Positions 55,924-62,246 of a DNA stretch of 64,000 bases are shown piece by piece; position 1 is the first letter of the stretch, and each line of letters starts with the position of its first letter. The stretch comes from an uncultured Prevotellaceae bacterium. GTDB taxonomy: Bacteria; Bacteroidota; Bacteroidia; Bacteroidales; Bacteroidaceae. The stretch covers positions 1-64,000 of the forward strand of contig CAMVUB010000004.1 in assembly GCA_947170495.1 (NCBI GenBank), in the 5' to 3' direction. The position numbers and the translations under genes were made by a program. Under the pieces are notes generated by a model that was given only the letters and a program-made list of their open reading frames with translations, was not told the origin of the DNA and did no database searches.

Positions 55924-57207
55924 ATGCACGCACAAGCTATCCCCGTGCTGCTGCTCACCGGCTATCTCGGCAGCGGCAAGACAACACTCTTGAATCGCAT
56001 CCTCAACAATCGTCGCGGCATACGCTTTGCCGTGATTGTCAACGATATCGGTGAGGTGAACATCGATGCCGACCTCATTGAGAAGGGAGGTGTCGTGGCA
56101 CAGAAGGACGACAGCCTCGTGGCGCTGCAGAACGGTTGCATCTGCTGCACGCTGAAGATGGATCTCGTGGAGCAGCTGCGCGATATCACGCGTCAGCAGC
56201 GCTTCGACTACATCGTCATCGAGGCCAGCGGTATCTGCGAGCCTGCACCCATCGCACAGACCATCTGCTCGATTCCCACGATGGGAATGGAATATATGCG
56301 CGACGGCATCCCCGTGGTCGATTGCATTGCCACCGTCGTCGATGCCCTGCGTATGCGCGATGAGTTCGGCAGCGGTAAGGATCTCCTGCGTCCCAACCTC
56401 GATGAGGACGATATCGAGAATCTCGTCATCCAGCAGATCGAGTTCTGCAACCTCATCCTCCTGAACAAAGCCTCCGAGGTGACACCCCACGAGCTCGGTC
56501 GCATCCGTGAGATTATCCGTGCCTTGCAGCCCAAGGCAGAGATTATCGAGTGCGACTACTGCGATGTTGATTTCGACAAGCTCCTCAACACCCATTCCTT
56601 CGACTTCGATAAAGTAGCCACCTCTGCCGCATGGATTGATGCCATTGAGGGTCACCACGGCGATGAAGAGGACGATGACGATGATCACGACAATGATCAC
56701 GATGACGATGATGACGACCATGACCACCACCATCATGATCACGAAGACCACGATGATGACCAAGATCACCATCACGAACATCACGATCACCACCATCATC
56801 ACCACCACCATCATGATGATGAGGGCGAAGCAGAGGAGTACGGAATAGGAACCTTTGTCTATTATCGCCGCGAGCCCTTGAACCTCGGCCTTTTCGATGA
56901 GTTCGTGGCTCGCCATTGGCCCGCCTCCATCATTCGTGCCAAGGGCATCTGCTGGTTCTACGGCGAGCCCGACACCTGCTATGTCTTTGAGCAGGCCGGA
57001 AAGCAAGTCACTCTCCGCAATGCCGGACAGTGGTATGCCACGATGCCTGCCGACGAGCTTGCCGAGTTCAAGGCCCAGAACCCCGACCTACGTCGTGATT
57101 GGGACGAGCACTACGGCGATCGCATGCAAAAGCTCGTCTTCATCGGCCAGCACCTCGACCGCGAAGCCATCACCCTCGCCCTTGACATGTGCCTCGCCAA
57201 ATCCTAA
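55924..57207 (+). CDS. CobW/G3E-family GTPase (putative metallochaperone) with long His/Asp-rich insert
   Basis: PVLLLTGYLGSGKTTLLNRIL..GCICCTLKMDL (CxCC motif)..; His/Asp tract about 56650-56835. Confidence 0.93.
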   Translation: MHAQAIPVLLLTGYLGSGKTTLLNRILNNRRGIRFAVIVNDIGEVNIDADLIEKGGVVAQKDDSLVALQNGCICCTLKMDLVEQLRDITRQQRFDYIVIEASGICEPAPIAQTICSIPTMGMEYMRDGIPVVDCIATVVDALRMRDEFGSGKDLLRPNLDEDDIENLVIQQIEFCNLILLNKASEVTPHELGRIREIIRALQPKAEIIECDYCDVDFDKLLNTHSFDFDKVATSAAWIDAIEGHHGDEEDDDDDHDNDHDDDDDDHDHHHHDHEDHDDDQDHHHEHHDHHHHHHHHHDDEGEAEEYGIGTFVYYRREPLNLGLFDEFVARHWPASIIRAKGICWFYGEPDTCYVFEQAGKQVTLRNAGQWYATMPADELAEFKAQNPDLRRDWDEHYGDRMQKLVFIGQHLDREAITLALDMCLAKS

Positions 57208-60549: not shown

Positions 60550-60625
60550 AGAGACGTGCAAGCCTTTAAAAACAACAATCGCAGACACTTGTTCGCGAAG
60601 CATCTGCGAGAGGTTTCATCGTTGG

Positions 60626-60698
<73 letters not shown>

Positions 60699-60738: not shown

Positions 60739-60766
60739 TTGACAATTGACAATTGACAATGGACAA
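60739..60766. repeat. heptamer micro-repeat TTGACAA x4
   Basis: TTGACAA|TTGACAA|TTGACAA|TGGACAA. Confidence 0.92.
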
Positions 60767-60820
60767 TTATTTTGTTTTTCACCTGCATTTTCTTGTGTTT
60801 TGACCTCTTTTCCCCCCTTT

Positions 60821-60841
60821 CATTCTTCACTTTTCACTTTT
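60821..60841. repeat. heptamer micro-repeat CACTTTT x3
   Basis: CATTCTT|CACTTTT|CACTTTT. Confidence 0.75.
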
Positions 60842-60847
60842 TTGCAC

Positions 60848-60855
60848 TATCTTTG
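60848..60855 (+). promoter_or_regulatory. Bacteroidetes -7 element TATCTTTG
   Basis: TAnnTTTG 25 bp upstream of the 60880 ATG. Confidence 0.55.
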
Positions 60856-60879: not shown

Positions 60880-62172
60880 ATGCGTCGCTATTTATCATTT
60901 ATCATTTACCATTTATTATTTATCATTTCAAGTCTCGCCCCTGCCGTCGCACAGACGTGGCAATTCGACTTCGTCAAGAACAAAGCTAACAAGGGTTCCG
61001 GGGCCATCCTCGTGCAGCCCACCCAACGCTATTCTGCTGATACGGACTATGGCTTCGACTTCATCGCATCGCCAGAGCGCCTGGACCGCCAGACACCTTT
61101 CTATTTCAGCGTGCGCGTGCCCGACGGCAACTACCGCGTGCGTGTCACGCTGGGCAGTCGCAAGCAGGCTGCTGTCACCACCGTGCGTGCTGAGAGCCGT
61201 CGCCTCTTTGTGGAGAACCTGGCCACCAAGAAGGGCGAGCTGCGCGACGTGGAGTTCATCGTGCACAAGCACTCCCCGCAAATCGACGCACAGCGCTCGA
61301 TGCGCCTGAAGAAGCGCGAGCTCACGAAACTCAACTTCGACGACCGCCTCACCATAGAGATCAACGGCGACGCTCCCGCCTGCGCTGCCATCCACATCGA
61401 GCGCGACGACAGCGTGCCTACGGTCTTCCTCTGCGGCAACAGCACCGTCGTGGATCAGGACTCTGAGCCGTGGGCCTCATGGGGCCAGATGATCACGCGT
61501 TGGTTCGGTCCCGAGGTGGCCATCGCCAACTTCGCTGAGAGCGGCGAGACGGCCAGCACCTTCATCGCCGCCAACCGCCTGGCCAAGGCGCTGTCGATGA
61601 TGAAGGCGGGCGACTACCTCATCGCCGAATTCGGGCACAACGACCAGAAGCAGCGCGGCCCGGGCATGGGTGCCTACTACAACTTTGCCACGGCGCTGAA
61701 GACATTTATAGATGAAACGCGCGCGCGTGAAGCCACGCCCATCTTCGTGACACCTACGCAGCGACGCTCCTTCAAGGACGGCCGCATTCAAGAGACCCAC
61801 GCTGACTACCCCGAGGCGATGGCTTGGGTGGCAGCGCGCGAGAACGTGCCCCTCATAGACCTCCACGCAATGACGCGCACCTTCTACGAGGCGATGGGCG
61901 AGGAGCCGAGCAAGCACGCCTTCGTGCACTATCCCGCAGGCAGCTTCCCCGGTCAGACCACCGACTTCAAGGACAACACTCATTTTAATCCCTACGGTGC
62001 CTATGAGCTGGCCAAATGCGTCATTGAAGGCATGAAAGCCATCCAGCTTCCTATCATTCAATACCTTCGCCCGGACTACAAACCCTTCGACCCGGCTCAT
62101 CCCGACTCCTTCGAGAACTTCCATTGGAACGACTCTCCCTTCTTCGAGGCAGAAAAACCAGACGGAAATTAG
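60880..62172 (+). CDS. secreted SGNH/GDSL esterase (rhamnogalacturonan acetylesterase-like)
   Basis: VPTVFLCGNSTVVDQDSEPWASWGQMITRWF..DYLIAEFGHNDQ..FVTPTQRRSF; start at MRRYLSFIIYHLL. Confidence 0.9.
   Translation: MRRYLSFIIYHLLFIISSLAPAVAQTWQFDFVKNKANKGSGAILVQPTQRYSADTDYGFDFIASPERLDRQTPFYFSVRVPDGNYRVRVTLGSRKQAAVTTVRAESRRLFVENLATKKGELRDVEFIVHKHSPQIDAQRSMRLKKRELTKLNFDDRLTIEINGDAPACAAIHIERDDSVPTVFLCGNSTVVDQDSEPWASWGQMITRWFGPEVAIANFAESGETASTFIAANRLAKALSMMKAGDYLIAEFGHNDQKQRGPGMGAYYNFATALKTFIDETRAREATPIFVTPTQRRSFKDGRIQETHADYPEAMAWVAARENVPLIDLHAMTRTFYEAMGEEPSKHAFVHYPAGSFPGQTTDFKDNTHFNPYGAYELAKCVIEGMKAIQLPIIQYLRPDYKPFDPAHPDSFENFHWNDSPFFEAEKPDGN
60890..60931. repeat. heptamer micro-repeat ATTTATC x6, forming the signal-peptide core
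   Basis: ATTTATC|ATTTATC|ATTTACC|ATTTATT|ATTTATC|ATTTCAA. Confidence 0.93.
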
Positions 62173-62187
62173 GCGGCGGAGCCGCAG

Positions 62188-62246
62188 TTTAAGGTTTAAG
62201 GTTTAAAGTTTAAGGTTGGTTAAGGTTATCGTTAAGGTTAAGGTTT
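62188..62246. repeat. heptamer/hexamer micro-repeat TTTAAGG / GTTAAG directly abutting a start codon
   Basis: TTTAAGG|TTTAAGG|TTTAAAG|TTTAAGG ... GTTAAG|GTTATC|GTTAAG|GTTAAG. Confidence 0.85.

Follow-up and report, generated by a model that had tools for sequence, protein, structure and literature searches.

Tandem repeats with a 7-bp period are known from Beggiatoaceae, Cyanobacteria and a few Bacteroidetes, where TAACTGA heptamers occur with in-frame copies near protein ends (MacGregor, 2015; PMC4679880). Larger repeats can also enter proteins: the dispersed YPAL/RU-2 repeat of Yersinia (~168 bp) partly forms a predicted signal peptide at a single highlighted locus, YPO1552 (Delihas; PMC2229807), and Rickettsia palindromic elements lie inside protein-coding genes (PMC2229807; PMC10969869). 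The arrays described here resemble the TAACTGA repeats in being 7-bp tandem direct repeats that are mostly intergenic (159 of 255) and often near gene starts; they also resemble them in their reading, since TAACTGA in reverse orientation gives the single heptapeptide LSVISYQ and, 7 being no multiple of 3, a stop-free word here is read in all three frames as one recurring heptapeptide. TAACTGA is a single word, however, whereas here ATTTATC is accompanied by many other words of constant period, and signal peptides go unmentioned in the TAACTGA report (PMC4679880), whereas here arrays form the hydrophobic core of exported-type proteins. With YPAL/RU-2 our arrays share that repetitive DNA contributes to a signal peptide predicted for an exported protein, but they consist of short heptamers in tandem and occur in numerous unrelated genes and species. 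With the Rickettsia elements they share repeat DNA in frame within conserved proteins; the passages on those elements describe palindromes of 105-146 bp and no tie to signal peptides. Compared with such MITE-derived segments (YPAL, RPE), which have terminal inverted repeats and a target-site duplication, what we find next to some arrays is no more than a short GC hairpin. Phase-variable simple-sequence-repeat loci likewise have tandem repeats close to the 5' ends of genes, in units whose length is no multiple of three, but here the copies are imperfect and their number does not change across species. Our search of the literature on heptamer repeats in Prevotella, or on repeats turned signal peptides, returned only the TAACTGA, Yersinia and Rickettsia precedents, relative to which tandem heptamers of many words, in many genes and many species, as signal cores is new.

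The heptamer array at the start of the esterase gene

In the window (the whole stretch of DNA analysed, 64,000 nucleotides), the 42-bp array reads ATTTATC, ATTTATC, ATTTACC, ATTTATT, ATTTATC and ATTTCAA; as the sixth unit is degenerate, we count five units and a partial one. TRF delimits the repeat at 60890-60928 (period 7, 5.6 copies, 87% matches), the lag-7 identity of the array is 28/35, and all five matches to ATTTATCATTTA in the window (at most one mismatch) fall inside the array, compared with 0.08 in shuffles. Sequence, coordinates and translation agree with the preliminary description, according to which ATTTATC heptamers encode the hydrophobic core of the esterase N-terminus (Table 1).

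Table 1. Features of the esterase locus, and further genes of the same genome with heptamer-coded N-termini
Feature	Position	Strand	Remarks
tRNA-Thr gene	60623-60698		both upstream arrays lie between it and the esterase
Upstream heptamer array, TTGACAA words	60739..60768		TRF
Upstream heptamer array, TTTCACT words	60818..60841		TRF
Putative -7 promoter box (Bacteroidetes-type), TATCTTTG	60848..60855	+	24 bases before ATG 60880
GDSL/SGNH-type esterase, 430 aa	60880..62172	+	ATG start at 60880; Pfam PF13472, 3.5e-14
Predicted Sec signal peptide, MRRYLSFIIYHLLFIISSLAPAVAQ	60880..60954	+	basic n-region, heptamer h-region, A-x-A c-region; from sequence and orthologous signal peptides
ATTTATC-type heptamer array (five units, the sixth degenerate)	60890..60931	+	encodes YLSFIIYHLLFIIS, codons 4-17
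Short GC hairpin, GCGGCGGAGCCGC	62173..62185		directly 3' of esterase stop, beside GTTTAAG array
Downstream heptamer array, GTTTAAG words	62187..62217		TRF
L078, DPP IV-like peptidase (Pfam)			heptamer-coded N-terminus MKRYLSFIIYHLSFIISLSAQ
L065, probable lipoprotein			heptamer-coded N-terminus, ending LTLSSC
L092			heptamer-coded N-terminus RIILFFIFHFSILTCISA
L109			heptamer-coded N-terminus LYYLLFIICYLSFPCQGVSA
L120 and L010			heptamer-coded N-terminal hydrophobic segments
L027, membrane protein			heptamer-coded N-terminal hydrophobic segment

By inspection, the N-terminus has a Sec layout, MRR / YLSFIIYHLLFIIS / APAVA-Q, with a basic n-region, a hydrophobic h-region, small residues at -3/-1 and predicted cleavage; here and below, signal peptides were assigned by simple rules only. 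The 25-residue N-terminal segment is thus a predicted export signal. The esterase itself is probably a rhamnogalacturonan acetylesterase, the annotation carried by distantly matching DNA on plasmids of Segatella and Bacteroides. Upstream, TATCTTTG fits the consensus TAnnTTTG, and we take it to be a Bacteroidetes-type -7 box; several esterase orthologues have a TAnnTTTG box at a comparable position. An alternative TTG start at 60772 is disfavoured by this box at 60848 and by the standard n-region at 60880.

Two other repeats of the window deserve mention. The protein encoded at 55924-57207 has an N-terminus, GYLGSGKTTLLN, that resembles a CobW-type GTPase, and it contains a long Asp/His-rich repeat tract (56671-56813) that is probably metal-binding, and a 15-bp tandem repeat, TGACACCCTTCGCTG, occupies positions 1-70 at the contig end, which is the start of the window.

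Period-7 arrays in the genome and in other species

The draft genome, of a rumen-type member of the Bacteroidales, comprises 2.33 Mb in 84 contigs, of which 1.93 Mb was analysed as stretches. These contain 216 near-perfect lag-7 tandem runs, compared with 0 in a Markov control, and a scan of lags gave strong echoes at 14 and 21. According to a simple gene caller, whose gene calls are crude, the 255 arrays that were placed comprise 159 intergenic and 54 internal ones as well as 21 each at gene ends and gene starts. Their words are highly diverse (AAACTTT, AACCCTC, AAGGATT and others), the period alone being constant, and they sort by place: intergenic words often contain stops (77% of readings on both strands), internal in-frame words are polar, and N-terminal words are stop-free and hydrophobic. 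The 54 intragenic arrays (for example, L025:19455-19488, L018:6960-6991 and L069:7341-7374) are mostly stop-free in the coding sense, adding polar heptapeptides such as PSTLNPQ and LSTLNSQ, and look as if inserted into coding sequence.

Including the esterase, eight genes of this genome have an N-terminal hydrophobic segment coded by heptamers (Table 1). The eight words are stop-free with a mean hydropathy of 1.77, an illustrative value to which no test is attached, the words having been picked by eye as hydrophobic. Among 444 signal-peptide-like starts, six carry a lag-7 array, compared with 0.06 in codon shuffles, although L128 is possibly a false gene call and the array of L016 lies past the hydrophobic core; no arrays were found at lags 5, 8 and 10 in the same 444 starts. 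As a separate observation, the proteins at L078:6322-8781 and L092:6440-8917 contain PRPPYKGG, PHREGGGR and PDPSHKGGE stretches, which look like other dispersed repeats translated in frame and at which the DPP IV-like gene shows gap differences among relatives.

To look beyond this genome, we scanned one genome per GTDB species for ATGARR followed within at most 21 bases by three ATTTWTC words. The pattern occurs at at least 118 loci, mostly in Prevotellaceae, Bacteroidaceae and other Bacteroidales, with further matches listed in some Flavobacteriia, Saprospiraceae, Parabeggiatoa, Nostoc and others; the frame running from the ATG through the array stays open for at least 120 codons at at least 49 places, again mostly in Bacteroidales. 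Nearly all of twenty proteins examined (eighteen from the scan) matched Pfam families, which are mutually unrelated and mostly of exported type (GH43, GH30, GH92, GH2, GH127, GH88, PorV, OEP, OMP barrel, LolA, LptE and GDSL), and SBP_bac_5 follows an array start in an Arcobacter. The search for further ATTTATC-type signal peptides suggested by the preliminary description succeeded, in unrelated proteins of exported type. The noncoding DNA of the scanned genomes holds the same words too. Nearly all of these genomes are metagenome assemblies, and the presence of the same arrays in independent assemblies speaks against an assembly artefact.

Age and proposed origin of heptamer-coded signal cores

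The ATTTATC array of the esterase is present in the genome studied here and in G133 and G134, and absent from the orthologues of G132 and G135. Most other orthologues in the genus (G019, G018, G010, G016, G011 and others) have ordinary, non-repeat signal peptides, and that of G001 is rich in another heptamer, TTTTAAT. A DNA tree of the esterase supports the clade of our genome, G133, G134 and G132 (98/99) but not its internal order, and the protein tree is poorly resolved. Since the array is confined to three members of this clade, it is young, and since orthologues beyond the clade have ordinary signal peptides, it is derived, in a protein that was secreted beforehand. The preliminary description had proposed that a micro-repeat became the secretion signal: a repeat of intergenic type does supply the predicted h-region, and does so again in other genes and species, but in the esterase it did so in a protein that was already secreted.

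We consider it likely that tandem heptamer DNA, of a kind that is mostly intergenic, serves as the h-region of Sec signal peptides in this genome and its relatives. These genomes would keep producing short tandem arrays of fixed 7-bp period and shifting words, mainly between genes; T-rich words such as ATTTATC and ATTTTTC would be read as hydrophobic peptides (LSFIIYH, FHFSFFI), and an array just past an ATG and basic residues would then take the place of the h-region in a Sec signal peptide, where nearly any hydrophobic sequence is accepted. Once recruited, the array would be kept at constant length like ordinary coding sequence. In the esterase, it would have replaced an existing h-region within one small clade. 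The export function of the heptamer-coded segments we infer from their sequence features. As to the mutational event, the array would have grown locally from a TATCATT seed, or an intergenic array would have been inserted or have converted the site; G132 has CTATCATTC where the first unit would be, and this would be compatible with local growth from a seed or with decay of an older array.

For the origin of export signals, these genes form a recurrent natural data set of noncoding-type repeats as signal-peptide cores. The set covers carbohydrate-active as well as outer-membrane proteins from Bacteroidales of gut and rumen, and the cleavage region is sometimes coded by an adjacent hairpin. The notion that almost any hydrophobic sequence can be a signal core thereby becomes testable in nature.

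Hairpins, possible nucleic-acid roles and the test for phase variation

In several genomes, a small perfect hairpin straight after the array codes for the last residues of the signal peptide: GCCCCGTAGGGGC (SPVGAQ), GCCCCGCAGGGGC (SPAGAQ), GCCTCGCAGAGGC (SLAEAQ) and AGCGTAGCGCT (SVAL). Such a hairpin follows 20 of 64 coding arrays, compared with 2.7 expected from shuffled bases, part of this sample having been chosen by a pattern with TTTAG at its end; when that part is excluded, the count is 14/54 (Fisher p ~4e-8). Ordinary c-regions of our own genome have a hairpin in 13 of 444 cases, a rough comparison because it is made across genomes. Some noncoding arrays are followed by related hairpins, GGGCGAAGCCC and GGGCGTAGCCC. 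Array and GC mini-hairpin might conceivably be one portable repetitive module that spreads through genomes and supplies genes with a complete signal peptide, its h-region coming from the array and its c-region and cleavage site from the hairpin (GCCCCGTAGGGGC, GCCTCGCAGAGGC, AGCGTAGCGCT); were this so, a single step could produce newly secreted proteins. We regard this as a tentative idea that is rather doubtful. We examined the hairpin as a general neighbour of intergenic arrays in our own genome and found a modest excess (21/159, compared with 31/600 random spacer positions), so array and hairpin do not always go together; no obvious hairpin is present in the c-region of the window esterase, and the composite therefore extends the finding rather than being part of it. 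Two points weigh against the h-region reading: the 54 internal arrays show that heptamers also enter genes outside signal peptides, and heptamer-coded cores could have arisen by local expansion of T-rich signal cores, independently of intergenic arrays.

Improbable, in our judgement, is that the array works at the DNA or RNA level, in translation initiation, mRNA stability or protein binding, with the hydrophobic peptide as a tolerated by-product. A translational role has been proposed for TAACTGA arrays just 5' of start codons (MacGregor, 2015; PMC4679880), and in our genome spacers between convergent genes are poor in arrays (4 arrays, although such spacers make up 70/572), pointing to a connection with the 5' side of genes. 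Yet orthologues that lack the array retain an ordinary signal peptide, in-gene words vary with their place in stop content and hydropathy, and among species the words change while hydrophobic core and length persist.

The preliminary description had also raised a phase-variation switch, in which slippage gains or loses 7-bp units and shifts the frame, turning the esterase on and off. Such a switch would be in keeping with a unit length that is no multiple of three, with the position of the array close to the gene start and with the general tie between N-terminal simple repeats and phase variation drawn in an earlier report (PMC4692102), but the comparison of relatives speaks strongly against it. 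In G133 (92.5% DNA identity), the esterase array matches ours base for base, even in the deviating units ATTTACC and ATTTATT, and in G134 (80%) it has equal length and few substitutions. The DPP IV-like array gives the same picture: it is base-identical in four species (our own and three relatives, with ~84-95% gene identity), and the signal peptide is 21 residues long in all seven array-type genomes, which include ones with ATTTTTC words and the degenerate G064. A 7-bp switch should leave many out-of-frame alleles, so the excess of in-frame arrays (at least 49 places) is the opposite of what it predicts. Among the matches listed, nine formal out-of-frame candidates proved to precede proteins with their own starts, several of them plainly cytosolic and one with a separate signal peptide, and none is a convincing off allele. 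Interrupted units, moreover, should slow slippage. As judged from these sequences, unit number is conserved across species and phase variation is very unlikely; an N-terminal tandem repeat need not mean a phase switch.

Chance, namely a Phe/Ile/Leu/Ser-rich signal core that merely looks periodic because such cores use few T-rich codons, can be practically dismissed: 39 of 100,000 random synonymous recodings of the peptide equal the observed lag-7 identity, but none of 100,000 codon-order shuffles of the array segment does, the excess in the signal peptides of this genome occurs at lag 7, with none at 5, 8 and 10, and the array recurs in many species with conservation at the nucleotide level. 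Invariant repeat number, together with non-repeat but protein-similar signal peptides in close orthologues, had been put forward as pointing to chance; the number is indeed invariant, but shuffles and recurrence contradict that conclusion. Period 8 also shows a weaker excess in the 1.93 Mb (89 runs compared with 1, its multiples too), and whatever generates the arrays may permit both periods.
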